From contig NZ_JAFIQT010000001.1 in the NCBI RefSeq assembly GCF_017355935.1, positions 1,736,001 through 1,800,000 on the forward strand: a stretch of 64,000 nt of DNA, in the 5' to 3' direction. How positions within the stretch are numbered: the stretch's first letter is position 1; every line of letters begins with the position of its first letter. Made by a program: the position numbers and the translations under genes. Below the pieces are notes generated by a model. It had not been told where the DNA came from. It did no database searches and saw nothing but the letters and a program-made list of their open reading frames with translations. The stretch comes from Telluribacter humicola. Its GTDB lineage: Bacteria > Bacteroidota > Bacteroidia > Cytophagales > Spirosomataceae. Positions 15,854-45,892 of this stretch are shown here, piece by piece.

Positions 15854-15880
15854 CCGTACCGGAGATACAATAAGTTACTT

Positions 15881-17083: not shown

Positions 17084-17122
17084 TTAGTGATTATGTGAAT
17101 GAGTGAGTGTCGAATGTCAATT
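17084..17122. repeat. Solo copy of the TGA-rich repeat seen beside the four-helix-bundle gene
   Basis: Begins TTAGTGATTATGTGAATGAG and ends TGTCAATT, matching the start (TTAGTGATT) and end (TGTCAATT) of the 4109-4133 flank. It begins one base after the CoA-binding gene's stop codon. No gene accompanies it. The rest of the gap to 17298 shows no recognisable feature. Confidence 0.4.
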
Positions 17123-20091: not shown

Positions 20092-20187
20092 ACGGAGTCG
20101 GCTCTTTAGTGTCAGGGCGAAGTTAACAAACTGTTTTGAAACAGGCGTCTGGAAAGGGATGATTCATGTATAGCTAGGGACTAATAC

Positions 20188-20226
20188 TCAGAGCGCCACT
20201 CTAGTCTGGCTAAAGTGGCGCTCTGA
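20188..20226 (-). terminator. Strong hairpin after the 20258-21445 gene
   Basis: Perfect 13-bp stem TCAGAGCGCCACT/AGTGGCGCTCTGA with a 13-base loop. There is no T run on the minus strand, so termination may be weak or Rho-assisted. It is the only element seen between 20092 and 20257. Confidence 0.6.
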
Positions 20227-20257
20227 ATAAAACAATATTTCGGTATTCTTGCAGAAG

Positions 20258-28789: not shown

Positions 28790-28989
28790 GAAACCGCATC
28801 CGCATTGAAAGGGCCATTCTGAATATCACGCAGGCCGATCTGGCCGAGCGTGTGCAGGTGTCCCGGCAGACGATCAATGCCATCGAAGCTGAAAAGTATT
28901 CGCCCTCCCTGGCGCTGGGCATGAAGATAGCCCGGGTGTTCAGTAAGCCGGTAGAGGAGGTTTTTGAGCTGGAAGAGGGAGATTTGTAA
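28786..28989 (+). CDS. Cro/C1-type helix-turn-helix regulator
   Basis: 67 residues that make up a single HTH_3 domain: RIRIERAILNITQADLAERVQVSRQTINAIEAEKYSPSL with recognition helix SRQTINAIE. It belongs to the small YozG-like group that pairs with DUF2975 proteins. The start ATG overlaps the upstream stop by four bases, so the two are translationally coupled. It probably represses its own promoter at 28206-28236. Confidence 0.9.
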   Translation: MRNRIRIERAILNITQADLAERVQVSRQTINAIEAEKYSPSLALGMKIARVFSKPVEEVFELEEGDL

Positions 28990-28993
28990 ACGG

Positions 28994-29025
28994 ACCGGCC
29001 AGGTAGCTACTACCTGGCCGGTTTG
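28994..29025 (+). terminator. Terminator of the DUF2975/HTH operon
   Basis: Perfect 13-bp stem ACCGGCCAGGTAG/CTACCTGGCCGGT with a 3-base loop followed by TT. It begins five bases after the HTH stop codon. Confidence 0.8.
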
Positions 29026-29123
29026 CTATTCTGTATATTTATCCGAAGTTTTGTAGCGGGCTAAGTTTTGGTTTGCTAGGTACAATACCCGAACTTTGGC
29101 TACGTACAATTCGTTGTCTATAC

Positions 29124-30122
29124 ATGAATATCCTTATTACCGGAGCTACCGGACTAGTAGGCAGTGCCGTTGCCAGGCGTCTTATTCAGGAAGGGCATAC
29201 GGTGCGGGCCCTGCATCGGGCCGGATCGGATCGGAGTCTGCTACGGGAGGTAGAAGACCGGGTCCAGTGGGTCGAAGGGGATATTCTGGATATCTACTCC
29301 CTGGAACAAGCTATTCAAGATACTGACTATGTAGTACATTCCGCCGCGGTGGTCTCCTTTGTACCCCGTGACCAGGATGCTATGTACAAGGTTAATGTGG
29401 AAGGTACTGCCAATGTAGTGAACGCCTGTCTGAAACTGGGGACCCGGAAACTCTGCCAGATTAGCAGCGTAGCGGCGTTGGGTCGGCCAGATCTGCGCAA
29501 AATAGGAGGGGGGCATGATATTGTTATTACTGAAGATCAACGGTGGGAAGAGTCACCCACCAATACCCACTACGCCAAAACCAAGTATCTGTCTGAACTG
29601 GAAGTGTGGCGCGGTGTAGCGGAAGGTCTCAAAGCCGTGATCGTAAATCCGTCGCTGGTGTTAGGCGAGGGGGATTGGGACCGAAGTAGTACCAGGCTAT
29701 TCAGGTACGTGTACGAGGAGAAACCCTTTTATACCGAAGGCCTGATGAATTACGTTGATGTACTAGATGTGGCCGAGGCTGTATACAGGCTTCTGTTTTC
29801 GGATATTACCGCTGAGCGATATGTACTAAGTGCCGGCAGCATGACCTACCAGGAGCTATTCAATAAGGTAGCCGAAGCCTTCGGTAAGAAGAAACCTACC
29901 ATACGGGTAAGTTCAGCCATGACAGCCATTATCTGGCGTTTTGAAGCGCTACGCTCCTGGCTTACAGGCAGTAACCCGCTTATTACAAAAGAAAGTGCGA
30001 AGTCGGCTACTCACCGGTTTAAGTACAACAGTCAGAAGATACAAAATGCTATCGGACTGACTTTCAGAACCTCTGATGAGACCATACGGAGGGTCTGTGA
30101 AAGTTTTAGTAAAGGGATTTGA
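29124..30122 (+). CDS. NAD-dependent epimerase/dehydratase family protein
   Basis: 332 residues from the ATG at 29124 (MNILITGATGLVGSAVA). This is an extended short-chain dehydrogenase with nucleotide motif TGATGLVG and catalytic Tyr-Lys in HYAKTKYLSE. A VNPSLVLGEGD segment resembles dihydroflavonol-reductase-like members. These enzymes act on sugars, sterol-like or phenolic ketones, so the name does not fix a substrate. It stands alone between two terminators. The longer in-frame start at 29073 would add 17 residues before the Rossmann fold and is less likely. Confidence 0.85.
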   Translation: MNILITGATGLVGSAVARRLIQEGHTVRALHRAGSDRSLLREVEDRVQWVEGDILDIYSLEQAIQDTDYVVHSAAVVSFVPRDQDAMYKVNVEGTANVVNACLKLGTRKLCQISSVAALGRPDLRKIGGGHDIVITEDQRWEESPTNTHYAKTKYLSELEVWRGVAEGLKAVIVNPSLVLGEGDWDRSSTRLFRYVYEEKPFYTEGLMNYVDVLDVAEAVYRLLFSDITAERYVLSAGSMTYQELFNKVAEAFGKKKPTIRVSSAMTAIIWRFEALRSWLTGSNPLITKESAKSATHRFKYNSQKIQNAIGLTFRTSDETIRRVCESFSKGI

Positions 30123-30209
30123 TAATAGGATTATTATCATTATCTTTCTACAACAGTATATATGATTTAAGTACTCTTGTACTTACTACTCTAACCACAA
30201 TTAGTGTAC

Positions 30210-31619
30210 ATGGAGCAAGATTTTGAGGAAAGAAAAGATTTTATGAAAGAGACATTGCTTCGCTTCGAGCACATGCTGAAAACTGAGGCTAATGAGTTCT
30301 TCGACCTGGATACATACGAACAAGTTGCTGAACATTATTTAGACAAAGGTGATTGGGAGAAAGCGTTCAAAGCCTGTGAGTTAGGGTTAGAAAATTATCC
30401 GTATTCTCTGGATCTGATGCTCAATAAAGCCCAGCTGCTCTCCAACCGCGGGGAGTTTGAAGGGGCGCTGGAATTACTCGAACGAGCCCGACTCTTCCAT
30501 CCCGGTGACGTTGAGATTCCGTTCATGCAGGGTACTATCTACAACCTGATGGGTGAGTACGAAACGTCCATTACTATTCTGGAAGCCATGCTGGATACCG
30601 CCGATGAAAAGGACGATATCTACTTCCAGATTGGACAATCCTACCAGAACTGGGGTAAGTATACTGAGGCGATCGAAAACTACAAGCTTTCGATCCAGCT
30701 CAATCTGCAGAACGAGCACGCCCTCTACGAGCTGGCACACTGTCTGGACCTGATTGGCGAGCTCGAAAGTCATCTTGATTTCTATAACAAGCTTATTGAT
30801 ATAGATCCGTACTCGCACCACGCGTGGTACAACTTAGGTATAGCGTACAGCAAGCTGGAGCGCTACGAAGATGCCGTGGAGGCGTATGACTACGCGACCA
30901 TCATCAAAGAAGATTTTGCTTCGGCTTTCTTCAATCTGGGTAATTCGTATATGAACCTTGAGCAGTACGAAAGTGCCCGCGATGCTTACGAGAAAGCCAT
31001 TGAACTGGAAGGAGAGCAGCCCGAAACCTGCTGCTGTCTGGCAAATAGCCTGGAAAAGCTGGGAGAGTTTGAAAAAGCGATCCGACAGTACCGCAAGGCT
31101 GTAAAGATGGATAGTGACTGGGATGACGGCTGGTTTGGACTGGGCCTGTGTATGGCCGAGTTGGGCCGCTGGCACGAAGCTATTGGCTTCTTCCGCAAAG
31201 CCCTTCAGATCTCCGAGCTGAACCCTGACTACTGGATGGCTCTGGCCGAAACCGAGTACAAACTGGGCAATGTAGTATCGGCCTTTGAGGCCTTCGAGAA
31301 GTCAGCCGAAATAGAGCCGGCCAATCCGGAAGTATGGCTGAAATGGTCACTGGTACTATTTGACCAGGGTAATTACGGTCGGGCCTGTGACTTATTGGCG
31401 GCTGCCGTGGACGAGATGCCCGAAGAGCCGGACCTGTACTATCGCTCGGCGGTGTATCTGATCCATGCCGGAGAGTACCGCGAGGCACTACTGAATCTGG
31501 AAATAGGCCTCACGCTTGACTACGACCGGCACGTACAGCTGTTTGACTTCTTCCCCGAACTGGAAAAGCAAAAAGCGCTGTACCGGATCATAGAACAGTA
31601 TCGAACCAAGAATTTATAA
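30210..31619 (+). CDS. Tetratricopeptide repeat protein
   Basis: 469 residues from the ATG at 30210; a GTG at 30204 would add two residues. About eleven TPR units are visible from residue 35 on, for example AWYNLGIAYSKLERYEDAVEAY and AFFNLGNSYMNLEQYESARDAY. There is no signal peptide, membrane helix or enzyme domain, so it is a cytoplasmic scaffold. Orthologues seem widely conserved in Bacteroidota. The partners are unknown. Confidence 0.88.
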   Translation: MEQDFEERKDFMKETLLRFEHMLKTEANEFFDLDTYEQVAEHYLDKGDWEKAFKACELGLENYPYSLDLMLNKAQLLSNRGEFEGALELLERARLFHPGDVEIPFMQGTIYNLMGEYETSITILEAMLDTADEKDDIYFQIGQSYQNWGKYTEAIENYKLSIQLNLQNEHALYELAHCLDLIGELESHLDFYNKLIDIDPYSHHAWYNLGIAYSKLERYEDAVEAYDYATIIKEDFASAFFNLGNSYMNLEQYESARDAYEKAIELEGEQPETCCCLANSLEKLGEFEKAIRQYRKAVKMDSDWDDGWFGLGLCMAELGRWHEAIGFFRKALQISELNPDYWMALAETEYKLGNVVSAFEAFEKSAEIEPANPEVWLKWSLVLFDQGNYGRACDLLAAAVDEMPEEPDLYYRSAVYLIHAGEYREALLNLEIGLTLDYDRHVQLFDFFPELEKQKALYRIIEQYRTKNL

Positions 31620-31624
31620 ATAGC

Positions 31625-31656
31625 AAAGCCCGTCGATTCTCGACGGGCTTTTTTTA
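31625..31656 (+). terminator. Terminator of the TPR gene
   Basis: Perfect 12-bp stem AAAGCCCGTCGA/TCGACGGGCTTT with a 3-base loop and a run of seven T. It overlaps the 3' end of the convergent glycosyltransferase gene. Confidence 0.9.
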
Positions 31657-32655
31657 TGACTGGGGCAGCACGCTAAGAAGCTGTGAGAGCTCTATATCAA
31701 GGGCACAGCGAAAATGTCCTTCGGGGCAGGCTTTATGGCCGTGCAGGCCGCAGGGACGACAGTGGAGAGGCTCCTGCTTCTGGACAATATGTGACACATC
31801 CGAAAGTGGCCCAAAGCCAAACTCAGGTACCGTAGAGCAGTACACCGCACACACAGGAGCATTCATGGCCGAGCTGATGTGCATCGGAGCCGAATCATTC
31901 ACATAGTTCATAGCAGCCTTTTCCATCAGAGCAGCCGATGCCAGAAAAGATAGTTGCCCACACAAGTTGGTAGCTATATCTGTCCGCCCGCTATCCCTGA
32001 TAATCCCTTCGGCTAGTTGTTTATCATCAGGACTTCCCAGCAGGTACACCTTGTACTGCTTAGGCAGATTGCGGATAAGATCGGCCCAGCGTTCAGCCGG
32101 GTACTGCTTGGTATACCACACCGAAGCCGGAGCTACACATACATACGGCTGCTCCTGGTAAGGTTTCAACTTCTCATAATCACCGGGCGAGGGGTACAGG
32201 CGAGGCTTAGACACGGTACTATCAACATGCTTTTTAACCAGCTCCTGATTGCGATCTACCTCATGAAAACCATTGCTGATACGGTGGGGGAGGCTTTCGG
32301 TAAATAAAAATGAAAAAGGATTTTTTTCGAATCCTGTACTGACTTTGGCCCCCGAAAAGGCCGTAAGGAATCCGGTGGAGCCGAAGCGCTGTAAGTTGAT
32401 AAGCCAGTCGTACCGCTGCTGACGGATCTGCCCTAGTAGTTGCAGCAGGCTCTTGTACTTTCCCTCTTTCTTGTGCCAGATAAGGACCTGGTTGAGGTAG
32501 GGATGCTGGTGGAACAGCCCTTCGTTTCCTTTACGTACCAGCAGGTCTATATGCGCGCCGGGATAGGAACTATGCAGTTTTTCAAGTAAGGAGGTGGCCA
32601 GTATGACATCACCTATAAAGGCGGTCTGTATGACCAGAATTCGCTGTGGATTCAT
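31654..32655 (-). CDS. Glycosyltransferase family 9 (heptosyltransferase-like)
   Basis: 333 residues from the ATG at 32653-32655 (MNPQRILVIQTAFIGDVILAT). The N-terminal QTAFIGDVILATSLLEKL and the C-terminal MNYVNDSAPMHISSAMNAPVCAVY are family hallmarks of ADP-heptose:LPS transferases. A CRPCGLHGHKACPEGHFRCAL cysteine cluster near the C-terminus is usual for Bacteroidota members. It probably adds a sugar to the LPS core or another surface glycan at the inner membrane. No other LPS gene is in the window. Confidence 0.9.
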   Translation of the reverse strand: MNPQRILVIQTAFIGDVILATSLLEKLHSSYPGAHIDLLVRKGNEGLFHQHPYLNQVLIWHKKEGKYKSLLQLLGQIRQQRYDWLINLQRFGSTGFLTAFSGAKVSTGFEKNPFSFLFTESLPHRISNGFHEVDRNQELVKKHVDSTVSKPRLYPSPGDYEKLKPYQEQPYVCVAPASVWYTKQYPAERWADLIRNLPKQYKVYLLGSPDDKQLAEGIIRDSGRTDIATNLCGQLSFLASAALMEKAAMNYVNDSAPMHISSAMNAPVCAVYCSTVPEFGFGPLSDVSHIVQKQEPLHCRPCGLHGHKACPEGHFRCALDIELSQLLSVLPQS

Positions 32656-32738
32656 TAGGTAAATTAGTATCGGACAAAATTCCGTAATTTTGCCCTTACC
32701 ACCGAAAATTATCGGATGCGATTTTGTGTTATTAAAGA

Positions 32739-34031
32739 ATGAAGAGAAATATAAGCCGTAAAAAGGTAGGTAATTTACACTCCGAAACAACCCTCACGGA
32801 AGAGTATCAACTACATACGCTTCCCAACGGGATTCGCATTGCACACAAACAAGTACCCTATACACAGATTGCTCATTGCGGTATTATGCTCGACATAGGT
32901 AGCCGTGACGAACAGTCCCATCAGCAGGGGCTGGCGCATTTTTGGGAGCATATGGCTTTCAAAGGTACCGAAAAGCGCCGCTCTCATCATATCATCAACC
33001 GCCTCGAAACTGTAGGCGGTGAACTGAACGCCTACACCACTAAAGAGAAGATCTGCTTCCATGCCTCAGTACTGGACGAGCATTTTGATAAGGCACTGGA
33101 TCTGCTGGTCGATATCGCTTTTCATTCCGTATTTCCGGAGAAGCAGATTGAGCGGGAGCGGAACGTAATCCTGGAAGAGATGTCTATGTACTACGATTCA
33201 CCCGAGGATGCTATCCAGGACGACTTTGACCAGCTACTATTTCCGAACCATTCGCTGGGTAGTAATATACTAGGTACAGCCGAGACGGTTCGTTCTTTTG
33301 GAAGTAATGACCTGCGGCAGTTCATCAGTGATAATCTGGATACAGAGCGTATTGTTGTGACATCTGTAAGCCGCTTGCCTTTCTCGAAAGTAGTACGTAC
33401 GGCAGAAAAGTACTTGGCAGATATACCGTCCAAAAAGACAAACCGGGTACGCGTGGCACCCTATCTGTACACGCCCGAGCGGCAGGAGGTGGCAAGGTCC
33501 ATCACGCAGGCCCAGTGCGCCATGGGACGTCCCTCGTACGCCCTGACTGATGAGCGTCGGCTGCCCTTCTTTATGCTGGTCAATTTGCTGGGAGGCCCGG
33601 GTATGAACTCCCGCTTTAATATGGCCCTTCGTGAGCGCTACGGTTTTGTGTACTCCATCGAGGCCAACTATACCCCTTATCTGGATACGGGCTTCTTAGG
33701 GATCTATTTTGGTACCGAACAGAAGCAACTCAACCGGAGCATCTCGCTTATTCATAAAGAACTGCGCCGCCTGCGCGAGCAGCCACTGACCACTACGCAG
33801 CTCCACCACACCAAGGTACAGCTGATGGGGCAGCTGGCTATGTCCGAAGAAAGCAACATGAGCTTTATGCTGATGATGGCGAAGAGCCTGCTGGATACCG
33901 GTAAAGTAGATACGCTACCGGAAATATTCGAAGAGATCCGCCAGGTTACGGCCCAGCAGTTGCAGGAGCTGGCGCAGGATATGTTCGACGAAAGTCAGTT
34001 TAGCTACCTGACATTCCTGCCCGAAGAATAG
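32739..34031 (+). CDS. M16 (insulinase-like) zinc peptidase
   Basis: 430 residues. The inverted zinc motif HxxEH is present as HFWEH, with the third ligand glutamate expected in ERERNVILEEMSM about 75 residues later. The PF05193-like second half contains GGPGMNSRFNMALRERYGFVYSIEANY. The short one-chain type with an intact HxxEH suggests an active cytoplasmic peptidase similar to the processing-peptidase/PqqF group. No signal peptide is seen. It diverges from the glycosyltransferase gene, with 83 bases between starts. Confidence 0.92.
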   Translation: MKRNISRKKVGNLHSETTLTEEYQLHTLPNGIRIAHKQVPYTQIAHCGIMLDIGSRDEQSHQQGLAHFWEHMAFKGTEKRRSHHIINRLETVGGELNAYTTKEKICFHASVLDEHFDKALDLLVDIAFHSVFPEKQIERERNVILEEMSMYYDSPEDAIQDDFDQLLFPNHSLGSNILGTAETVRSFGSNDLRQFISDNLDTERIVVTSVSRLPFSKVVRTAEKYLADIPSKKTNRVRVAPYLYTPERQEVARSITQAQCAMGRPSYALTDERRLPFFMLVNLLGGPGMNSRFNMALRERYGFVYSIEANYTPYLDTGFLGIYFGTEQKQLNRSISLIHKELRRLREQPLTTTQLHHTKVQLMGQLAMSEESNMSFMLMMAKSLLDTGKVDTLPEIFEEIRQVTAQQLQELAQDMFDESQFSYLTFLPEE

Positions 34032-34145
34032 GAGTGGAAATTCTGACCGGGTCGCCGGTGCGATTATTTAATACTGAGTTCTGAATAGTTTCAACACAAC
34101 TAATCAGATATAAGATATTCAAGCGTGGTTGTTTATATAGCCACA

Positions 34146-34184
34146 AAAAACGGGAGCGCAGCTTATAGCCGCGCTCCCGTTTTT
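34146..34184. terminator. Bidirectional terminator between M16 peptidase and cytochrome c genes
   Basis: Stem AAAAACGGGAGCGC/GCGCTCCCGTTTTT with inner GC pairs and T runs on both strands. Confidence 0.88.
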
Positions 34185-34243
34185 ATTATATGTCGGTGAA
34201 TAGCTGATTACTACAAGCCAACACTTGATAGCTCTAAACTAAA

Positions 34244-34612
34244 TTAGCTTTTCTTCTTAGCAGGAGCTGCCTTAGCTGGCTTAGCAGCTAGTGAATTGAT
34301 CCAGGTAGCCAATTTAAGAGCATCTTCCTTAGGAACCTGAGTCATGGGAGCCATTGGAGGATAACCAGGCCAGTTAGCAGGCTCAGGCTTATAGATAAGC
34401 TCTACAATCCGCTCATTCTTGTATCCCTTCTTGGCAACATCTACATAAGCAGGACCTACCAGCTTAGTGTCGGCACGGTGACAGGCAAAACAAGTGTACT
34501 TAGTAAGCAACGCATTGATGTCATCAGGTACTTTAACTTGTGCATTTGCCGAGCTTGTGCTCATAAGAGTAGCAACAACGGCTGCCACCATAAATCCAAA
34601 GCTTTTTTTCAT
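34244..34612 (-). CDS. Small periplasmic c-type cytochrome (class I)
   Basis: 122 residues with a signal peptide ending at SANAQ. One heme site CFACH is present (CxxCH), and MAPMTQVP carries the likely distal Met ligand, as in c551/c552 proteins. The lysine/alanine-rich tail PAKAAPAKKKS is unusual. It could carry electrons from periplasmic dehydrogenases such as the GMC/subunit 3 pair at 50573-52969 or the GSDH-like protein at 1-1837, but this is inference since the genes are far apart. Confidence 0.92.
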   Translation of the reverse strand: MKKSFGFMVAAVVATLMSTSSANAQVKVPDDINALLTKYTCFACHRADTKLVGPAYVDVAKKGYKNERIVELIYKPEPANWPGYPPMAPMTQVPKEDALKLATWINSLAAKPAKAAPAKKKS

Positions 34613-34661
34613 GAGTTTGTTAAAAGGAAATAATTACAACTGTACTAACCAAAAGACGGAA

Positions 34662-34669
34662 CAAAAGTA
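34662..34669 (-). promoter_or_regulatory. Putative -7 box (TACTTTTG) for the cytochrome c gene
   Basis: TACTTTTG on the minus strand, 50 bases before the start codon, fits TAnnTTTG. A convincing -33 element is missing. Confidence 0.4.
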
Positions 34670-34839
34670 AACAAGTACTCGGATTAACGGAATTCTGTTT
34701 CAAAAAAAAGAGAACAGTACGTGTAATTATTTACATCATGCCTCCATAGACAGTGTCCCACGAAAAAACGAAATTGTAATAAATTTAGTGCCCGTTGTTT
34801 ACTTCTTAATTAGTACATGTATCCTAGTAAAGTCCTATA

Positions 34840-37314
34840 TTAGTTATAGGTAAGCCATGAACTGGCTTTGCAATCCATGTCGGTTGAGAATCGAATCCAA
34901 CGAGCCTGAAATGCGACTGGGAAATTATACTCAAATGTTTCTCCGGCTGGTACTGTTACTTCCCGATAGGTCATCCAGGGACCATGGCCGCTGGGCTCTA
35001 CTTCAATCCTGAACGTAACGGGTTGCTTCTGATCGTGTGATAATTTCAGATTCTTTTTATCATAGAAGCCGATCAGGTACGGGTCAGATGGTACATTTTG
35101 CTTCACCTGACTGTTTTTCCAGGGGCCTCCTTCACCTACCGGCTTTCCTAATTTCCAAAGATCGTCAATGGTACCTGCCCATACGCTGGCTTGTCCATCT
35201 TCAGAGCGGATGATGTGCTTACTGTTTGTCTTCGGGTTTGCTTCCAGACCCGTCATGACTAATAAACCACGATAGGAGGCATAATCATGAATAGCTAGCT
35301 GGTGGGATGCAACAGGTCTTATTTTGGCAAACCCGTCAGCGTTTTCGGCGGGTAGTTCATAAAAGGTACCATGGGCATTCAGAAGATCACGCTCCGTAGC
35401 AACTTCCCTGCATATTCTCAGAGCACCATTACTGGTAAGCTTGTTATAAGTAGCACTACCTAAAGGGAGTCTCCATCTTCTGCCGTTATCATCAACGACT
35501 AGTACGGAGGATTCTTCTACGGTGATGGCATCTTTGGGGATAGCAAATTTATCCCGGATAAACTGAGCCGTCCTGGGATCTTCCTTCTTTACAAGCTTCA
35601 TAGCTCCATCCAGTTCATAGTATCCGCTCTCGGTAAATTTTCCGTCCACCATCTTACCAGCTAGCAGGCCCAGTGCCCGACGGTTATCTCCTAAACCATA
35701 GAGAAGTCCACCGGTTGAGCTTTGATTATTTATGGTAGCTATCCCTTTGAAGAGTGGATCGGCTTTGGTGTTGAAACGACTGGCATCTGTATACGTAAAA
35801 TGTACTGTGGCCTGAGTAGGCTTGTTGCTGGTAACCCGTATCCACTCACCCTTTTCCTGAGGCGTAAACATCAGGTACTGAGCCTTACCGGGGGCGGCAT
35901 CAACTTTTTGTATCGAGGTCCACTGTCCGTTACCGTTCCGGTCTACTTCAAAGTTGAATGAAACTGTTTCCTTACCCTCATTGAGAATCCAGGCCATACG
36001 CTGGTCCCAACCGGCGAACAGGAATGGCTCGGAAGGCTTTCCTGCTTTGGTTTTTTCAGAAAGCCATACAGCACCCTCGGCGGTATTAGGGCCTAGTTTA
36101 TCAGGTTGGTCCAGGGAAGTAAACCAGAGGTTGGAGTTGGATTGGCCAGGGCCTTCGATACCTCCTTTGGCTTTCCGCTTGTTAAGAAACTCTTTCTGAG
36201 CCGAATCATCACAGCCAAAGACCAGTCTATCCTGCCAGCGGGTAAAGTCACCAATTACCTTCAGGTAAGATGATCTGGGGCGGATACCTGCTGTATTCGA
36301 GGAAGTGAACGATTCCGGAAACTTCCAGAACATTCCGTGCATGGTCATGAGGTAGTCAGGCTTTTCAGCTGTGCCTATGTCCCGGATCCGCGGCCATTCG
36401 GTATTCCAGCCGTGGGCTCCGTCGTAGCTATGGCTGGCTTTGGGAAGCCGGTAAAACGTCCATTGGTTATGATCACGTACACCCAGCAGAACAGACTTGT
36501 GGTCCCAGCCAGTGGCCCAGATTGGATCTGTTTCAGGATTCTTATTTCCGTAAATTCCGCCGGGGCCGGTTACTTCTACGAACTGGTTGCGGCGGACCAG
36601 CTTCCAGTCTTTTCCGTCCCACTCGGATAGCGATCCTGACTCAATGTCGAACTGCTTAAGCGCCTTCGGACCCGATTCCCCATTATTTGAATACACCATT
36701 ACTCCCTGACCGGAATAGAGTCCCTTACCGTGGGCGCCAAATAGTAAGTCCGAAGACTGATTGGCTGATTCATCATGCCCTTTTTTATTCTTTACGTTTC
36801 CATCCTCATACAGTAAAGTAGGCTTCAGTGAATTGACATCTACCTCATAGAAGCCTTCTTCCATGGTACCATAGAATATCTTACCGGCCGGGTCGGAGAA
36901 GTGGCGGGCGTTACCCGTATGACGTCCGGGCATGGCAGTATAGGGAATAGTACGTACCTGTCCCTGGTAATCAACCGCGTAAGGGCCAATGAAAAGTTGC
37001 TTGCTTTCCGGGTGAATCATCCGGTTGGCAGGGGTACCACCGATACTTTCTCCACGTACAGTCTGTTGCAGATCGGCCGTTATCTCGTATAGTTTATCTG
37101 ATGAACCGTAGGGTAGGTGTGGGCCATAGGTAACTACCCACAGCTTGTTGGCCCAGGGTACTACGGCTCCCGTACCACATTCACCCTCATTATTATAATA
37201 CGCCAGATGGGGATAGATGCCGCTGAACTCCGGTTTGTCAGAGACCTGGTCTGGTTTCTGGGAGCTACAGCCGTATAGTAAGCAAGCTGAAAGTAGAAGA
37301 GCACTTTTTCTCAT
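34840..37314 (-). CDS. Large lipoprotein of unknown function (PUL survivor)
   Basis: 824 residues from the ATG at 37312-37314, which gives a clean lipoprotein signal with lipobox LLYGC (Cys15-16 region). The mature protein is rich in Trp/Gly beta strands and repeats (TVHFTYTD, FNFEVDRNGNGQWTSIQ and a similar FRIEVEPSGHGPWMTYREV at the end), suggesting two homologous beta-sandwich modules behind a propeller-like N-terminal part. I do not recognise a catalytic motif. It lies directly downstream of a SusD remnant, where surface glycan-binding proteins or enzymes usually sit. The apparent loss of susC and most of susD leaves its role uncertain. Confidence 0.8.
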   Translation of the reverse strand: MRKSALLLSACLLYGCSSQKPDQVSDKPEFSGIYPHLAYYNNEGECGTGAVVPWANKLWVVTYGPHLPYGSSDKLYEITADLQQTVRGESIGGTPANRMIHPESKQLFIGPYAVDYQGQVRTIPYTAMPGRHTGNARHFSDPAGKIFYGTMEEGFYEVDVNSLKPTLLYEDGNVKNKKGHDESANQSSDLLFGAHGKGLYSGQGVMVYSNNGESGPKALKQFDIESGSLSEWDGKDWKLVRRNQFVEVTGPGGIYGNKNPETDPIWATGWDHKSVLLGVRDHNQWTFYRLPKASHSYDGAHGWNTEWPRIRDIGTAEKPDYLMTMHGMFWKFPESFTSSNTAGIRPRSSYLKVIGDFTRWQDRLVFGCDDSAQKEFLNKRKAKGGIEGPGQSNSNLWFTSLDQPDKLGPNTAEGAVWLSEKTKAGKPSEPFLFAGWDQRMAWILNEGKETVSFNFEVDRNGNGQWTSIQKVDAAPGKAQYLMFTPQEKGEWIRVTSNKPTQATVHFTYTDASRFNTKADPLFKGIATINNQSSTGGLLYGLGDNRRALGLLAGKMVDGKFTESGYYELDGAMKLVKKEDPRTAQFIRDKFAIPKDAITVEESSVLVVDDNGRRWRLPLGSATYNKLTSNGALRICREVATERDLLNAHGTFYELPAENADGFAKIRPVASHQLAIHDYASYRGLLVMTGLEANPKTNSKHIIRSEDGQASVWAGTIDDLWKLGKPVGEGGPWKNSQVKQNVPSDPYLIGFYDKKNLKLSHDQKQPVTFRIEVEPSGHGPWMTYREVTVPAGETFEYNFPVAFQARWIRFSTDMDCKASSWLTYN

Positions 37315-37453
37315 GAATGTTTTAGTATTTTTTGATTGTTCGTACATATAGAATGTAGTAGTCATTTTCTCTACTAACTTCTAATTGGTAGAGTATCCGG
37401 CTGTCATTATTATGAATGACTAAGTCTATTACATGACTATTGACCTGAGTAAA

Positions 37454-37630
37454 TTAGTAGTTAGGGTTCTGTTCCGACCCACTCGTAAGTACTTCCGCCG
37501 ACGGAATGGGCCACAGGTACTGACGGTTGGCGTCAAATTTCCGGGCTACTATCTGCTTGATCAAACCTGCATTGTACGCTGAGTGGGAATTGATGTACAT
37601 GATATCGGCAATATTATCATACTCAAGCTC
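37454..37630 (-). pseudogene. Chimeric remnant: end of sigma region 4 joined to the last 38 codons of a SusD gene
   Basis: The frame continues from the sigma gene past its stop codon. Codons 1-20 (ELEYDNIADIMYINSHSAYN) look like the sigma-4 DNA-binding helices. The reading then changes at about 37570 into AGLIKQIVARKFDANRQYLW, PIPSAEV and a C-terminal QNPNY, the characteristic end of SusD/RagB lipoproteins. The stop is at 37454-37456. This is best explained by a deletion that removed the intervening anti-sigma, susC and most of susD genes. Nothing suggests a functional product. Confidence 0.85.
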
Positions 37631-38122
37631 CTAGTAGAACCGCAGATAAATGGCTTCTCGTTGGCGTTTGGTCTTGTCGAGCTGTGTACGTAGCTTTTTC
37701 AGGTCTTCGTGTTGAATCTCATTATTGATCAGGTACGATTCGATGGCAAACTGTACTTCAAACGTATAATCATCTGTAACTTCCTTGGCTTCTCTGAACC
37801 AACGGAGCCGTTGGGACTCTCTCGTAAGCTTGCAACGCAGGGATTTTAAGAGATAGAATTTTACCTGTTGAACATCATCGAGTTGCTCCCTTTTGTTCCA
37901 GAGTTCTATAAAAAGGTCGTGCAGACAGTCCTTTACAAATTCCCGATCGTTCTGGAGCCGGGCGCCATAGTTGAGCAAGAGGGGGTAGTAATGATTCAAT
38001 AGCTCAGCGAAGGCATTTCTATCTCCCTGCTTGAAAGCTTGCCAAAGTGCATACTCCTGACCATTTTCAGATAGAGTAGCTAGATGTTTAGATTGCCAGG
38101 TTGCTGCCCTTGATTCTTGCAT
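37631..38122 (-). pseudogene. ECF sigma-70 factor interrupted by an in-frame stop in region 4
   Basis: 163 codons to the first stop. Region 2 is recognisable (AFAELLNHYYPLLLNYGARL, CLHDLFIELWNKREQ). Region 4 begins with KTKRQREAIYLRFY and then meets TAG at 37631-37633, where homologues read Gln or similar and continue as ELEYDNIADIM. A single CAG-to-TAG change would explain it. The following codons remain in frame up to the SusD fusion. The gene probably controlled a lost SusCD locus. Region 2 alone is unlikely to work as a sigma factor. Confidence 0.8.
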
Positions 38123-38246
38123 TGTAGAATTGCATCGACGAGAACCAGAAATGATAGTTCTTCGTGGTAAAACATAAAGATTCCATGCCTCTTATCTATA
38201 AGAGACGAAGAAGTAGGAGTTGTCCTGAAAAAAATTGAATTATTTT

Positions 38247-39935
38247 TTAGTCAGTGATCCATTCCACCCTGAGAATCTTGCTACTTACACCCAGATCGGC
38301 AAAGAAGTGCTGCCAGTGGAGTTGCCGGGCAGACAGGTGGTCGGTAGGAGACTTTACTTCTACGAAAGCATACCCCTCATCATCCCACACCAGCAGGTCA
38401 GGAAAGCCCCGTGTATTCTCCTGCAGGTTAGAGGCCATCTCCAGCAGGACAGCGTGTAGCTGGGTAGGTGTAATCAGCTCCACTACGGCCAGCGCAGCCT
38501 CGAGTAGCTCGGGGTACCAGCCTACGAGTACGTTAGTGGTGCCGAATTTGTCGGTGTAGGTCTGCCTGATCGTTTCTCTGATTGCTTCCTTACTGTCGAG
38601 CTCTATAATCCGAGCCTTGAGCATACTGTGCCGCTTGAAGTAAAAGTCAGGCAGAAAAAAATCAGACGGAACTCGCTGCAGGGGATGGTGAATGGCCTGT
38701 ACGTTGGTATCATAGATAATATCCCAGAACAGGAGACCAAATAAGGCCCGCCAGGGCTCATTCTCACTGAACAGTGCATTATGTCCCTGTTCGCGGTAGT
38801 ACTCTATGACTCCCCGCTCTACCTGATAGCGATAGCTTATAGGAATCTGTACTGACCCGGCCGCCTGCAGGGCCTGGGTAGTACGACGGGTAGAGCGCTT
38901 TTTCTTATTCAGAATCTTCTCCCGGAAGTCCAGTGCAAAGAAGCGCTCATCGGCGTTCTGCGGATGTGCCATCATGTCGTCGCACAGAGCCAGGGCTTCT
39001 TCCACATCACCCATGCGGTGTAGCAGCCGGGCCCGGCGCTCCCGCGAAGGGGCATGGTCAGTAAGCTGGTATACGGCCAGGGCTTGCTCCGGGAGTTTTT
39101 TCCGCTCCAGCCAGGCGCCAACCTTGAGTACCAGCTGACGGTAGGAGGGAAGGGCCACCAGGCTCAGGTCATCCGGCAGGCCTCCCTGCCAGTTCATAAA
39201 CCAGTCGTAAATTTCCTCGGGGGGCAGTTCATCTTTCAGCTCATAGAATGTCTCTTTCGTGAGCGATACCATCAGCTTGTCGTCGGCATCTTTACGCGTG
39301 GCAAAACGCACCGATAGCTGATCTTCATCAAACGACTGAAAGCGTACATGCCCCAGGTCCCGCACCACAAACTCGGTCATGTCAGCATGGCGATTGCCGA
39401 AGAAGAGAAACTTCATCATCATGACCTCTATCTCATAGCCTACCTTCACGATGGGCTCCAGAGCATCGACGGCTTCATAGAGTACTTTGAAAGAGTACTC
39501 ATGCAGGAGCCAGCGCATCAGGTCTGCCTTGAGGATAGCCTTGGGTGGCATAATCACCGGAGCCAGTGCCTGCGTAATGAGTAAGAGCTCGGGTTTACTG
39601 AGCAGGTTAAGTACCTCCGGGGCCCGGTGGGCGTGCTGTTCCGAAAGTACTTCGGCAAAACCATTTTCTATTAGTTCAGTAATAGCGTCGGGTATATCGC
39701 AGATCTCGGTATAAGCCAAAGCATTGACCCTGAAGAAGGCTCCTCGGCGGTTGCTGAACCGGATAAAAAGACAGCGGGCATCTTCGGATAAGGCATTGTA
39801 TGAACGCAGGAATTCCTTCTCAGGCTCATTCAGGATATGACCGTACATTTTTTGCACGAAATCCAGGACAAAGCCAAAGTATTCGAGGTAGTACTTGGGA
39901 GGTAATTCGGTACGCGCCTGCTCGCTGCTGCTCAC
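38247..39935 (-). CDS. VRR-NUC domain nuclease (Fan1-like)
   Basis: 562 residues. A long helical N-terminal part with TPR-like segments (about 280-350) is followed by a C-terminal VRR-NUC nuclease with GFPDLLVWD and EVKSPTDHLSARQ, which carry the catalytic Asp, Glu and Lys plus Gln. This architecture matches the bacterial relatives of eukaryotic FAN1, a structure-specific nuclease for cross-link repair. In bacteria they are scattered, and the biological role is poorly known. The gene stands alone, diverging from pgk across a 28-bp palindrome. Confidence 0.9.
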   Translation of the reverse strand: MSSSEQARTELPPKYYLEYFGFVLDFVQKMYGHILNEPEKEFLRSYNALSEDARCLFIRFSNRRGAFFRVNALAYTEICDIPDAITELIENGFAEVLSEQHAHRAPEVLNLLSKPELLLITQALAPVIMPPKAILKADLMRWLLHEYSFKVLYEAVDALEPIVKVGYEIEVMMMKFLFFGNRHADMTEFVVRDLGHVRFQSFDEDQLSVRFATRKDADDKLMVSLTKETFYELKDELPPEEIYDWFMNWQGGLPDDLSLVALPSYRQLVLKVGAWLERKKLPEQALAVYQLTDHAPSRERRARLLHRMGDVEEALALCDDMMAHPQNADERFFALDFREKILNKKKRSTRRTTQALQAAGSVQIPISYRYQVERGVIEYYREQGHNALFSENEPWRALFGLLFWDIIYDTNVQAIHHPLQRVPSDFFLPDFYFKRHSMLKARIIELDSKEAIRETIRQTYTDKFGTTNVLVGWYPELLEAALAVVELITPTQLHAVLLEMASNLQENTRGFPDLLVWDDEGYAFVEVKSPTDHLSARQLHWQHFFADLGVSSKILRVEWITD

Positions 39936-40067
39936 GGAGTAATGGTACTGTTAATGGGTGGATTTGGTGCTTGATTTATCTAAAGATAAAACGGTAAAGG
40001 ACGCGGTAGAGTTCATGATTAAATAATATCACGAAAATAGAACCATAAGCAGTAAAAATTGTAATAA

Positions 40068-40095
40068 ATATGGCTAATTAGCTAATTAGCCATAT
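40068..40095. repeat. Perfect 28-bp palindrome upstream of pgk
   Basis: ATATGGCTAATTAG followed by its exact reverse complement, with nested GCTAATTAGC units. It ends 28 bases before the putative pgk -7 box, where an activator or repressor dimer would sit. It lies in the 225-base gap 39936-40160, which holds no other gene. Confidence 0.85.
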
Positions 40096-40123
40096 CTTAT
40101 ATAGTGTTTTTAAAGAATTGGTT

Positions 40124-40131
40124 TACATTTG
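40124..40131 (+). promoter_or_regulatory. Putative -7 box (TACATTTG) of pgk
   Basis: TACATTTG fits TAnnTTTG and lies 29 bases before the ATG at 40161. The -33 region is TGTTTTTAAAG, without a clear TTG, which would fit an activator-dependent promoter. Confidence 0.45.
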
Positions 40132-40160
40132 TTTTCGTTCAAAAACAATTTACCTACCCT

Positions 40161-41351
40161 ATGAGAACACTTGACTCTTACGACTTTTCCGGAAAAAAGG
40201 CCCTCGTTCGGGTTGACTTCAACGTACCTCTCAATGACAAATATGAGATTACGGATGATACCCGTATCAAGGCTACTGTTCCAACCATAACGAAGATACT
40301 GAACGATGGTGGGGCTTGTATTCTGATGTCACACCTGGGACGTCCTAAGGACGGACCAACCGAAAAATACTCCCTGAAGCACCTGGTTACGCCCCTGTCT
40401 CTGATCTTTGGCCGTACGGTTAAGTTCGCGGATGACTGTATTGGTGAAAAAGCAACTGAGCTGGCGGCTGGTCTGCAGCCCGGCGAAATTCTGTTGCTGG
40501 AAAACCTGCGCTTCTACAAAGAAGAAGAAAAAGGCAACGAAGAGTTTGCTCAGAAACTGGCCAAACTGGGAGATGTATGGGTAATGGATGCCTTTGGTAC
40601 TGCGCACCGTGCTCACGCCTCTACGGCAGTAATCGGTCAGTACTTTGAAGATAAAGTATGTGGCTACGTAATGCAGGCCGAACTGGATAACGCCCAGCGT
40701 ATCCTCGAGCATGCCGAACGTCCATTTACAGCCATCATGGGTGGAGCCAAGATTTCGGATAAAATCCTGATCATTGAGCGCCTGCTTGACAACGTAGACA
40801 ACCTCATCATTGGTGGTGGTATGTCGTATACATTCTCCAAAGCAAAAGGAGGAAAGATTGGAAAGTCACTACTTGAAGCCGATAAGCAGGAACTGACCCT
40901 TGAGATTCTTGAGAAGGCAAAGGCCAAAGGTGTGAATATCATTCTGCCGGTTGATACCGTAATCGCTGATGGCTTCAGCAATGATGCCAACCGCCAGACC
41001 GTGAAAGCCGGTGAGATACCTAATGAGTGGGAAGGCCTGGACATTGGACCTGAATCAGTGAAGCTATTCAAAGATATCGTAGCTAACTCCAAGACTATCC
41101 TCTGGAACGGTCCTATGGGGGTATTTGAGTTCCCTAACTTTGCCGTAGGTACCAACGCCATTGCTGAGGCAGTAGTGAAGGCTACCGAGGAGAACGACGC
41201 ATTCTCCCTGATCGGTGGTGGAGACTCAGCATCGGCAGTAAATAACGCTGGCTACGGTGACCGCGTGAGCTACGTATCCACCGGTGGTGGTGCCCTTCTG
41301 GAATACATGGAAGGTAAAGAACTTCCCGGTGTAGCGGCCCTTAATGCATAA
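40161..41351 (+). CDS. pgk: Phosphoglycerate kinase
   Basis: 396 residues from the ATG at 40161 ([24 protein letters not shown]). Hallmarks include RVDFNVPL for the substrate side, LMSHLGRPK, and the nucleotide side [18 protein letters not shown] and GGGDSASAV. This glycolytic enzyme transfers phosphate between 1,3-bisphosphoglycerate and ADP. It is a single gene between a palindrome-containing promoter region and a terminator. An upstream in-frame ATG at 40104 would add 19 residues that overlap the promoter and is unlikely. Confidence 0.97.
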
Positions 41352-41385
41352 TCCTGCTAACTGGCTGTAGAAAATACAATAGGGT

Positions 41386-41424
41386 AAAAAGAGAGAGCAG
41401 GACCGTCCTGCTCTCTCTCTTTTT
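41386..41424 (+). terminator. Terminator of pgk
   Basis: Long stem AAAAAGAGAGAGCAGGAC/GTCCTGCTCTCTCTCTTTTT, with one extra dinucleotide on the right arm, ending in TTTTT. Confidence 0.85.
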
Positions 41425-41435
41425 GTAGACCAATA

Positions 41436-41470
41436 AAAAATCCACTCCTCAATATGGGAGTGGATTTTCA
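41436..41470 (-). terminator. Terminator of the TonB-receptor gene
   Basis: Stem AAAATCCACTCC/GGAGTGGATTTT. The minus strand ends in TTTTTTATTGG. It lies 65 bases after the receptor's stop codon and opposite the pgk terminator. Confidence 0.8.
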
Positions 41471-41536
41471 TTTTCTTAACCTAAACTAATCGTATGAATA
41501 AAGTCAACTTTCGCCAACTGATACTCCAAATTTTAA

Positions 41537-44002
41537 TTAATTATTTGTCTGAACGCGCTGTTGCAGTTCATCCGAGCCCGTTTTGCGCTGGCGGGCACCT
41601 TTCACATTCTGGTTACCAAAGCGGTAGGTAAATGTGGCGCGGATCTGACGGCTTGGCCATCTTGACTGTACTGTCAGATTGATATCTCTGAAATCAGCTA
41701 CTCCTTTGAACTTGTTGGTCCAGAAAACATCATTGACGTTCAGACGCAGTGTACCTTTCTTATCAAGTACTGTCTTTTGCAGACCCAGGTTGAGCATACC
41801 CTGTGGATTCGCTACAAAGAATCCGTAGACGCTTTTGCTGTTGTACCAGCCAGATACCTCGGCTGACCAACCCTTAGGCAGGCGGAACTGGTTGTTAGCG
41901 TAGGCATTCCAGCTAATCTGTTCTACGTCGAAGAGCTCACTCTGGTAGAAGGTCTGGTAGCGGTTGTACACTCCGGTAAAGTTGGTTTGCAGCGACCACC
42001 ATTTCGTAACAGGGATCGGCATCGAAATCGTCAGGCTCAGGTTATCCTGGTTGTCCAGGTTTTCGGTAGTGACGAATGTCTTGTTCTCTGCCGCAATCAA
42101 TCGAGGTACTTCCCGTACGATCACATCCTTGATACGGCTATACGCCAGGCTGGTATTCAGGAAGCTCTTGAAGGTATGAGTCAACTGGAATGAGTGCGTA
42201 TACTGGGGTTTCAGGTTGGGGTTACCACGCTGGAAGGTATAAGGGTCCAGGTAGAACTCGAATGGGTTGAGCGACTGATAATCGGGACGGTCGATGCGGC
42301 GGCTGTATGACAGGTTCAGGACGTTGCTGCTATCCAGCTGGCGTGATATAAATACGCTCGGGAACAGGTTGACGTAGTTGCGGTCACGGATATCATTTAG
42401 GGTAACCGAGTTACCGATCGAGTGCGTATGCTCAGCACGCAGACCTAACTGGTACTGTGTCTTGGCGTTGATCTTTCCGCTCAGGTTAGCGTAGGCCGCA
42501 TTGATATTCTCTGAGTACTTAAAGTGGTTGGTACGGGTAGGATCAAGCGTCCAGTCGTCCAGCTTCTGCTCAAATTTCATATTGTTATCCGAAGCCACAT
42601 AACTTGATTTCAGACCGGTTTCGAATTTGGCTTTGCCGATCGATTGAGTATAATCAAGCTTTGCTACACCGATATTGATATCAGAAGGCATGCCGTTACG
42701 TACCAGTTCAGGAGTACCTGATGGTTCGCCGGTAGGGGTAAAGTAGCGGGTGTCCAGCAGGTTGTTACTCTTACCGCTATAATTTACATAGTCAGCATCG
42801 AAAGTCAGTTCCTTACCTTTGTCATCAAACTGGTGTTTCAGGTTGACATTGGCGCTGATGTTGTTCATCTTCGAGCCGCTCTCTGTAATGGTCTGGTACG
42901 TCTGACGTAAGCTCTTGTCGCCATTCAGAATGCGGGTATTGGTTTCTCCACGGGGCGTATTCCAATCATTATGGAAACCGGATACCAGGGCACCTATGGT
43001 TGTCTTCTTGGTAACAAAGTAGTCTATACCGGCTCTGACACTGTAGTTCTGTGAGCTGTTGCGGCGGTAGGTTTTCTGATCAAATATCGTGATGTTGTCA
43101 TTATAGGGGATTTCACGGTAGATATCATTCGTATTAAACCCGTTTCCTTTGTAGCCGTTGAGCGTCGCAAAGGTACTGATCTTGCCCTCGCGGTGATTCA
43201 GTGAGAGCGAGCCATTACCACGACCGTACTTGTCGCCTACTACACCTCCGCCTACCGTAAAGGTACCGTTGGTACCGAAGTTCTTGTTACGCTTAAACTT
43301 GATGTTGATAATACCCGAGTTACCCACGGCATCGTACTTGGATGACGGGTTAGTGATCAGTTCTATCTTCTCAATATTATCGCTGGGCGTGTTGCGCAGC
43401 AGATTCATCAGTTCCTGTTGGGAGAGGAAGGTCTGCTTGCCGTCGATCTGGACAATTACCCCATCCTTGCCACGTAGCTGTACTCGTTCGTTCTGCTGGT
43501 CTACAGTGATACCGGGAGCGCGTTCCAGTACTTCCAGAGCGGTAGCACCGGCCGATACGATACTGTTTTCTACGTTCACCACCGTGCGGTCTATCTGCTG
43601 CTCTATGAAGGGCTTCTTAGCTACTACATTGACCTCTTTCAGATTCTGTACATCCGTAGACAGCGTAACGGTTGAAAGCTGAACGCCCTCGTGACCTACT
43701 ACAAACGGTTGGCTATATACTTTCTGGTACCCAACCATTGACACCAGCGTCAAGTAGCGACCCGCCTCAATCTGCTCTATGACGTATTTACCATCTACAT
43801 CGGTGGTGGTACCTTTGGCCAGCGTTGAGTCCTTTGCCTTAAGGAGCAATACGTTAACGAAGGGAAAGGCCTGCTGTTTTTCGTCAAGTACTGAGCCGGA
43901 TACCTGTCCTCTTACACCCGTCTGGGCTGATGCGGGTGTCCCGGGAAGTAAGACGGCAGCGACTGCCGCCGCGGCAAATAGTCTGGTAAAGAATGATTTC
44001 AT
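41537..44002 (-). CDS. TonB-dependent receptor / outer-membrane beta-barrel family protein
   Basis: 821 residues with a signal peptide ending at PASAQ. A CarboxypepD_reg-like beta-sandwich occupies about residues 30-120 (GSVLDEKQQAFPFVNVLLL, GRYLTLVSMVGYQKVY). A plug domain follows (VLERAPGITVDQQNERVQLRG, IELITNPSSKYDAVGNSGIINIK), and a C-terminal 14-20 strand barrel ends in FTYRFGNQNVKG plus a polar tail. It lacks a SusD partner, so it belongs to the non-SusC group (OMP_b-brl_3). It probably takes up a siderophore, peptide or small ligand by TonB energy. The substrate is unknown. Confidence 0.92.
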   Translation of the reverse strand: MKSFFTRLFAAAAVAAVLLPGTPASAQTGVRGQVSGSVLDEKQQAFPFVNVLLLKAKDSTLAKGTTTDVDGKYVIEQIEAGRYLTLVSMVGYQKVYSQPFVVGHEGVQLSTVTLSTDVQNLKEVNVVAKKPFIEQQIDRTVVNVENSIVSAGATALEVLERAPGITVDQQNERVQLRGKDGVIVQIDGKQTFLSQQELMNLLRNTPSDNIEKIELITNPSSKYDAVGNSGIINIKFKRNKNFGTNGTFTVGGGVVGDKYGRGNGSLSLNHREGKISTFATLNGYKGNGFNTNDIYREIPYNDNITIFDQKTYRRNSSQNYSVRAGIDYFVTKKTTIGALVSGFHNDWNTPRGETNTRILNGDKSLRQTYQTITESGSKMNNISANVNLKHQFDDKGKELTFDADYVNYSGKSNNLLDTRYFTPTGEPSGTPELVRNGMPSDINIGVAKLDYTQSIGKAKFETGLKSSYVASDNNMKFEQKLDDWTLDPTRTNHFKYSENINAAYANLSGKINAKTQYQLGLRAEHTHSIGNSVTLNDIRDRNYVNLFPSVFISRQLDSSNVLNLSYSRRIDRPDYQSLNPFEFYLDPYTFQRGNPNLKPQYTHSFQLTHTFKSFLNTSLAYSRIKDVIVREVPRLIAAENKTFVTTENLDNQDNLSLTISMPIPVTKWWSLQTNFTGVYNRYQTFYQSELFDVEQISWNAYANNQFRLPKGWSAEVSGWYNSKSVYGFFVANPQGMLNLGLQKTVLDKKGTLRLNVNDVFWTNKFKGVADFRDINLTVQSRWPSRQIRATFTYRFGNQNVKGARQRKTGSDELQQRVQTNN

Positions 44003-44055
44003 GGCTAACAGATGTTATACTAGGTTGCTTATCTTTTAAGTTATGATCTACATTG

Positions 44056-44063
44056 CAAAGATA
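44056..44063 (-). promoter_or_regulatory. Putative -7 box (TATCTTTG) of the TonB-receptor gene
   Basis: TATCTTTG on the minus strand, about 55 bases before the receptor start, fits TAnnTTTG. No clean TTG -33 element was found. Confidence 0.4.
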
Positions 44064-44244
44064 AGTACTTTGTATAGCATAGAACCTTTCATTACACGAA
44101 AGGCGGATTATTGGTATGAACGGAACAAGTTATCTATCGAGGTAATCTGTGCTCGTCGGTAGATAGATGTAAAGTGAATAAAGAATGTTGCACCGTGAAA
44201 GAAAAAAAATTTGAATGGTGGATAATACAGGTTGAATGGAACCT

Positions 44245-44297
44245 GCTGCCGCAGTGGAACTGCCCTAGTGGAGCTGCCTCATTTCCACTGGGGCAGC
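44245..44297. repeat. GC-rich hairpin/14-mer repeat element in the 408-base gap before pncB
   Basis: GCTGCCGCAGTGGAA (44245-44259) pairs with TTCCACTGGGGCAGC (44283-44297) with one mismatch. Between them lie two further CTGCCnnAGTGGA-like units with 14-base spacing. The remaining gap 44003-44410 is AT-rich and shows no gene. The element could be an RNA leader structure for pncB, a repetitive extragenic palindrome, or a chance duplication. Confidence 0.6.
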
Positions 44298-44410
44298 AAA
44301 CAAGACCATTATATTTTGGGTAGTACTATAAATTAAAGGGGGGAGGTATGGTAAATGGTGGTGCTGTTCTATCTTGCCTCTCCAATAGTAAGTAATGACA
44401 CCAGTACTGT

Positions 44411-45892
44411 ATGATCAACAAGCTTTACGATACATCACTTAGTCTGCTGACCGACCTGTACCAGCTTACCATGGCCTATGGCTACTTCAAATCCGGTAAA
44501 GCCGAGCAGGAAGCGGTATTTAATCTCTATTTCAGAAAGCACCCTTTTCAGGGAGGATTTACGGTAGCCTGTGGTTTGAGCAGTGTGATTGACTACCTCA
44601 ATGAGTACCGTATCTCCGACAGTGACCTTACGTATCTGGGCTCCCTGACGGGCAGTGATGGTAAGCCACTCTTTACACAGGATTTTCTAGAGTACCTGCG
44701 TACGATGGAGTTCCGGTGTGACGTCGAAGCGGTACCCGAGGGTACTGTAGTATTCCCGAACGAGCCCCTACTCCGGATCAAAGGCCCTATCCTGCAGTGC
44801 CAGCTACTGGAAACGCCCCTTCTCAACCTGATCAACTTCCAGACGCTGATCGCGACCAAAGCGGCCCGGATGCGCCTGGTAGCAGAGAAAGATCTGTTGT
44901 TAGAGTTTGGCTTACGACGTGCCCAGGGACCCGATGGTGGTATGACCGCCAGCCGGGCTGCCTATATAGGTGGTTTTGATGCTACCTCTAATGTGCTGGC
45001 TGGTAAGCTATATGGGATACCCGTGCGTGGTACGCACGCGCACAGCTGGGTGATGTCGTTCGATAGTGAGCTGGAGTCGTTTGAGACCTATGCCCAGATG
45101 ATGCCCAATAACGTTACCCTGCTTGTGGATACCTATGATACTATACAGGGGGTAAAGAATGCAATAAAAGTAGGTGAGCAGCTCCGAGCCAGAGGCTACG
45201 ACCTAGGTGGGATCAGACTCGACTCAGGTGACCTGGCGTACCTGAGTATTGAAGCGCGAAAGCTATTGGATGAAGCAGGATTCAAGAATACCAATATTGT
45301 AGCCAGCAATGATCTGGACGAGCACATCATGGCGAGCCTGAAAAACCAGGGAGCTAAGATTAACGTCTGGGGGGTAGGTACTAAGCTGGTGACTGCCTTT
45401 GACCAGCCTGCTCTGGGTGGAGTATACAAGCTGGCGGCAATTTGTACCCGGGAGAACCATTGGGAGTACAAGCTTAAGCTCTCGGAACAGGCGGTGAAGG
45501 TATCGACGCCCGGTATTCAGCAGGTGCGGCGCTACTGCGAAAACGGCAGCTACATAGCGGATATGATATTTAATGAAGAAACCCCACCACCCGCTGAGCC
45601 TACTATGGTAGATCCTTATGATTTTACCCGTCGTAGTACTTTTGCTTCTTCACTATCCTACGAGGATCTACTGGTACCTGTATTCCGGCAGGGGAAGCTG
45701 GTGTATGAACTACCCGGTGTAGAGGAGGCCCGCAAGCGGGTACAAAACCAACTGGCTTCCTTCCACGGAGGGATCAAGCGCTTTGTCAATCCACATACAT
45801 TTCCGGTTGGACTGGAACGGCAACTGTTTGATCTGAAGACAGACCTGATCTTCCAGCTACGCTCACCCAAAAAAGTAGCCGTCAATGAATAA
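44411..45892 (+). CDS. pncB: Nicotinate phosphoribosyltransferase
   Basis: 493 residues. It starts NKLYDTSLSLLTDLYQLTMAYGYF, the typical NAPRTase opening. The phosphoribosyl site is suggested by GLRRAQGPDGGMTASRAAYIGGFD, RGTHAHSWVMSF and GGIRLDSGDLAYLS. It forms nicotinate mononucleotide in the NAD salvage pathway. The length and DSGD motif fit the longer bacterial type. Its last eight bases overlap the start of the desaturase-like gene, so the two are co-transcribed, although they share no obvious pathway. Confidence 0.95.
   Translation: MINKLYDTSLSLLTDLYQLTMAYGYFKSGKAEQEAVFNLYFRKHPFQGGFTVACGLSSVIDYLNEYRISDSDLTYLGSLTGSDGKPLFTQDFLEYLRTMEFRCDVEAVPEGTVVFPNEPLLRIKGPILQCQLLETPLLNLINFQTLIATKAARMRLVAEKDLLLEFGLRRAQGPDGGMTASRAAYIGGFDATSNVLAGKLYGIPVRGTHAHSWVMSFDSELESFETYAQMMPNNVTLLVDTYDTIQGVKNAIKVGEQLRARGYDLGGIRLDSGDLAYLSIEARKLLDEAGFKNTNIVASNDLDEHIMASLKNQGAKINVWGVGTKLVTAFDQPALGGVYKLAAICTRENHWEYKLKLSEQAVKVSTPGIQQVRRYCENGSYIADMIFNEETPPPAEPTMVDPYDFTRRSTFASSLSYEDLLVPVFRQGKLVYELPGVEEARKRVQNQLASFHGGIKRFVNPHTFPVGLERQLFDLKTDLIFQLRSPKKVAVNE

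Follow-up and report, generated by a model that had tools for sequence, protein, structure and literature searches.

The window, a stretch of 64,000 nucleotides from Telluribacter humicola, contains on its minus strand a reading frame that begins as an ECF sigma factor gene, is interrupted by a TAG codon and ends as a SusD gene. The frame lies between a lipoprotein gene and a VRR-NUC gene, and the features of the locus are as follows:

34244..34612, minus strand: cytochrome c gene, the conserved downstream neighbour (Pfam Cytochrom_C; collinear in Rhabdobacter roseus)
34840..37314, minus strand: orphan lipoprotein gene of 824 amino acids, with which the operon formerly ended (80% identity with its R. 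roseus counterpart; frame free of stops)
37454..37577, minus strand: 38 terminal SusD codons and the stop, fused in frame (tblastn with R. roseus SusD, E 1.6e-15; 87-bp DNA match)
37577..37630, minus strand: sigma region-4 codons between the TAG and the junction (split scan against R. roseus)
37631..37633, minus strand: premature TAG (the codon is Gln in 9/10 and Glu in 1/10 sigma orthologues)
37634..38122, minus strand: 5' part of the ECF sigma gene, 163 codons covering region 2 and the start of region 4 (Sigma70_r2 above the Pfam cut-off; 131 of 163 residues as in the R. roseus sigma factor)
38200..38231, minus strand: motif TTTTCAGGA-N17-YCTCTT, the likely promoter through which the sigma factor drove the lost operon (preceding 7 of 11 sigma genes without mismatch; no second exact match in this genome)
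38247..39935, minus strand: VRR-NUC (FAN1-HTH) gene, the conserved upstream neighbour (Pfam; collinear in R. roseus)

The chimeric reading frame

The sigma open reading frame runs on the minus strand from 38122 to 37631, where the TAG terminates it after 163 codons. Past the TAG the same frame reads ELEYDNIADIMYINSHSA(YN), then AGLIKQIVARKFDANRQYLWPIPSAEVLTSGSEQNPNY, and then a stop. The original prediction had described a TAG followed by 20 region-4 codons without naming the strand; the TAG is confirmed, the stretch comprises 18-20 codons, a range set by the ambiguous YN, and the strand is minus. Its count of 38 terminal SusD codons was right.

Separate profile searches of the two parts, which had been proposed together with that prediction, support both assignments, the second one weakly. 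The part before the TAG matches Pfam Sigma70_r2 with 26.4 bits (cut-off 24), and the Pfam search of the 163-residue product gave no region-4 match, so that a complete region 4 is not found in the open frame; the R. roseus sigma protein matches Sigma70_r4_2 at residues 143-194. The 58-residue tail, searched alone, matches positions 263-297 of the 297 positions of SusD_RagB (14.1 bits against a cut-off of 23.1; E 0.037), and a whole SusD_RagB domain was not found, the match being limited to these terminal positions. Against the host genome at E <= 10, the tail matches 8 places, namely the scar itself, one end of a SusD-type frame of 531 residues (E 0.004), and six places at E 0.155 to 1.85. The R. 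roseus sigma factor aligns with window positions 38122 to 37571 at 80% amino-acid identity, and the C-terminus of R. roseus SusD with 37627 to 37457 (E 1.6e-15); this orthology is the strong evidence that the fused parts are what they appear to be. The sigma gene carries three kinds of disabling lesion: the TAG, the fusion, and the loss of one codon, for a Leu that is present in 10/10 orthologues.

The intact operon and the missing DNA

A scan of genome contigs returned 5 loci, the best of which belongs to Rhabdobacter roseus (L064), with these genes:

8189-9877: VRR-NUC gene
10001-10633: sigma gene
10694-11770: FecR gene (Pfam FecR)
11991-15404: SusC gene (Pfam Plug; STN below cut-off)
15382-17109: SusD gene (Pfam SusD)
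end at 19773: lipoprotein gene
20010-20372: cytochrome c gene

The order of ECF sigma, anti-sigma, susC and susD genes on which the original prediction relied is therefore the one found in R. roseus, where sigma, FecR, SusC, SusD and lipoprotein genes follow each other between the same outer neighbours as in the window. Collinear DNA blocks shared by the two genomes extend from VRR-NUC to sigma and cover the lipoprotein gene, the cytochrome c gene, and the 87-bp susD tail. Sigma and FecR genes of related type are also present at the Larkinella locus and at two Dyadobacter loci, with SusC at most 42% and SusD at most 39% identical to those of R. roseus. Regulators and transporters seem to be exchanged. 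Two other stretches (L123 of G012 and L124 of G017) encode SusC and SusD proteins 83-91% identical to those of R. roseus, next to sigma and FecR proteins at just 34-40%, and sigma genes of related type accompany other SusC and SusD genes in L065-L067.

Relative to R. roseus, 6,437 bp are absent from the window, from within sigma to within susD. The split scan places the best boundary between sigma-like and SusD-like sequence at 37578|37577, corresponding to L064 10548|16986; the junction had been put near 37570, and split scores are nearly flat across about 10 bases. When the R. roseus proteins were compared with all contigs of the host genome, no orthologue-level matches of FecR, SusC or SusD were found outside the scar. 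The best matches by E-value have 34% (SusD), 38% (FecR) and 38% (SusC) identity, short stretches reach 48%, 42% and 52%, respectively, and the exception among the SusD matches is the tail inside the scar, with 76%. Of these three genes, the susD tail alone remains at the locus, and the sole SusC match in the window lies in a separate outer membrane protein gene at 41537-44002. The predicted loss of the anti-sigma gene, susC and most of susD is thus borne out as about 6.4 kb relative to the R. roseus operon, with no displaced orthologue found in the host genome, and the description of the frame as a chimeric pseudogene stands on the intact collinear counterpart, on the missing genes not being found elsewhere in the genome, and on the disabling lesions. 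The simplest history has a single deletion; an identical scar would result from several that overlapped. No clear repeat marks the breakpoints; the longest word shared by the R. roseus breakpoint regions has 7 bases and lies away from the junction, and the relatives are too diverged for microhomology to be settled.

The comparison within the genus covers two genomes, the window's own and G001. G001 gives no match to the scar, so that an intact fused frame in relatives, which had been named as evidence against a deletion, is not found in the one other genome of the genus. It aligns with the window at 28448-34696 and 38278-45816, and between these blocks it has the following region:

L142 (G001:C1:71000-85000), 6248-6450: 203-bp gap region, from which the whole remnant is gone

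Flanks aside, nothing in this stretch matches the window region better than E 0.4 or R. roseus better than E 2.2, except for one match (E 0.0003) beside cytochrome c. The lipoprotein has no match in G001, and the best matches there by E-value are 35% identical for sigma and 32% for SusD. The VRR-NUC frame of G001 has a different end and is 17 residues longer, as if the deletion had ended inside the VRR-NUC gene. The loss of everything from sigma through lipoprotein in G001 was probably a separate, larger deletion, because the window scar looks younger than the split between the two genomes.

The surviving lipoprotein gene and candidate promoter

The lipoprotein gene was predicted to be an orphan, and its frame is open throughout. 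The frame listed by the program spans 34840-37365, and in our reading translation more likely begins with the Met at 37314, since a lipoprotein signal follows it. The protein was found in 112 of the 222 family genomes searched, the window's own counted. Its neighbourhood was surveyed in 20 hand-picked stretches, 19 of which include upstream sequence, R. roseus among them. In all 19, SusC and SusD homologues lie upstream on the same strand (45-91% identical to those of R. roseus, or R. roseus itself). The next recognised gene upstream is SusD in 16/19; a second lipoprotein copy (2/19) or about 2 kb of unidentified sequence (1/19) intervenes in the rest. Preceding regulators on the same strand are sigma and FecR in nine stretches, FecR alone in five, and neither in five. 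In some genomes, a second, diverged lipoprotein copy adjoins the first (L140, L141). No NCBIfam family matches the lipoprotein, nor does any Pfam family above cut-off, and the four PDB sequence matches of the protein have E values of 0.34-0.61. Its AlphaFold model has a mean pLDDT of 64.5, and no fold is claimed because none of the 50 Foldseek matches listed of 1,751 exceeds a TM-score, by query length, of 0.21.

Within the 124 bases upstream of the sigma gene, the window and R. roseus agree fully over blocks of 24 and 18 bases. The motif TTTTCAGGA-N17-YCTCTT was looked for upstream of 11 sigma orthologues, those of the window and R. roseus among them and some start positions approximate. It is exact in 7 of them, and the others depart from it at one position (one orthologue), at three (one) or at five (two). 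When the 300 upstream bases of the window were shuffled 2,000 times, no shuffle held the motif with 0 or 1 mismatch, although the pattern was drawn from the sequences in which it was counted and the shuffles are therefore no independent test. Genome-wide, the window's genome and that of R. roseus each have a single exact match, at this locus, and G001 has two, at other places; with at most one mismatch there are 4, 4 and 4 in G000, G001 and G024, against 2, 1 and 0 for a reversed control pattern. We infer that 38200-38231 is a candidate promoter that would be sigma-dependent and would now be without its sigma factor. The surviving motif offers a concrete candidate promoter for this sigma subfamily. 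The vegetative -7 motif of Bacteroidota is TANNTTTG; with at most one mismatch, it is absent upstream of the window lipoprotein gene, occurs twice upstream of that of R. roseus, and occurs once upstream of each sigma gene (window and R. roseus).

Age of the lesion, alternative explanations and known systems

The window sigma piece was aligned with ten sigma orthologues. Among gap-free sites invariant in these ten, 0/40 are changed in the window, and a relative-rate comparison with R. roseus using 8 outgroups found no excess (lowest p 0.267), which points to a recent death of the sigma gene. Changes at codon positions 1+2 were set against those at position 3 between the window and R. roseus, in place of dN/dS, since dS is saturated in places. 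The resulting ratio is 0.195 for the sigma piece, 0.218 for the lipoprotein, 0.221 for cytochrome c, 0.218 for the 44411 gene, 0.306 for the 41537 gene, and 0.270 for VRR-NUC. When equal rates are simulated in a simple model, the probability of 0/40 changes is 0.06 for 0.03 substitutions per site and 0.02 for 0.04. Between the window and G001, dS is 0.48 (3,536 codons, 8 genes), about 0.24 per lineage; by these values, the death of the sigma gene most likely postdates the window/G001 split by a wide margin. In the SusD tail, 1/29 residues identical in six relatives is changed, in a by-eye count for which the search pattern favoured similar tails. This residue was counted against the deletion and tells little about cause.

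Almost certainly, the locus is what a recent deletion left of an ECF sigma / FecR / SusC / SusD / lipoprotein operon. The same conservation would be seen if the truncated sigma piece were a functional gene under selection, for example a region-2-only regulator, and the intact upstream motif would fit as well. Nevertheless, a recent death gives an identical pattern, the anti-sigma gene, SusC and SusD are gone together with the conserved Leu, and G001 has kept no trace of the piece, which makes such a function very improbable. Equally improbable is the broader proposal that a region-2-only piece acts as a small regulator of other sigma/FecR pairs, with the lipoprotein recruited to another SusCD pair.

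An operon still whole in the genome, with the contig misjoined across it, deserves consideration since SusC-type genes are abundant (102 matches in the host genome) and can mislead assemblers, and the host assembly consists of 24 contigs. However, the missing FecR, SusC and SusD genes were found on no contig, no long repeat is shared by the two R. roseus breakpoints, and the gene has two further lesions of its own, the TAG and the lost codon; an assembly error is accordingly even less probable. The direction of change might also be reversed, with the short state ancestral and the anti-sigma, SusC and SusD genes acquired by R. roseus through insertion. The R. roseus SusC and SusD resemble their G012 and G017 counterparts more closely than the host neighbour genes of these genera resemble each other, and the pair may thus have moved between lineages. 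On the other hand, a broken sigma gene with an in-frame SusD tail would not result from insertion into a whole gene, and ten sigma orthologues continue through region 4, which leaves insertion the least credible account of all.

Under the deletion reading, the intact system would, by its families, import a nutrient through SusC-SusD, with FecR signalling nutrient binding and thereby freeing the sigma factor, which, given the motif, would transcribe its own operon from that site. In this genome, the remnant sigma factor is without the promoter-recognition helix and so would regulate nothing. The lipoprotein is probably not expressed from that promoter any more, and the remaining operon parts would be decaying.

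In bacterial deletion pseudogenes and chimeric gene remnants, a deletion has brought the ends of two genes together, and a premature stop is present. The present scar is ordinary, well documented genome decay that leaves the general understanding unchanged, and it differs from the usual cases only in allowing the intact locus, the scarred one and the empty one to be compared. It provides a clear snapshot of the loss of nutrient-uptake operons in Bacteroidota, the locus being intact in a relative, freshly scarred in the window, and wholly gone from the other genome of the genus. A literature search returned no paper on ECF sigma/SusD deletion pseudogenes in Bacteroidetes, and such scars are not claimed as unreported.

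According to one study (PMC11501099), ECF sigma/anti-sigma pairs are common regulators of SusCD loci in Bacteroides, and SusC transport is coupled to the anti-sigma factor. The R. roseus order, with FecR, SusC (Plug) and SusD domains, resembles such loci of Bacteroidota, whereas the window is without the anti-sigma gene, SusC and most of SusD, and its sigma factor is truncated. The same study describes PUL24 of B. thetaiotaomicron, in which the anti-sigma factor BT1876 is lost by nonsense mutation or deletion and transcription of BT1871 rises (PMC11501099). The window resembles PUL24 in that the anti-sigma gene of a sigma/anti-sigma-controlled locus is lost; since its sigma factor is truncated too and SusC-SusD are lost, a rise like that of BT1871 would not be expected.
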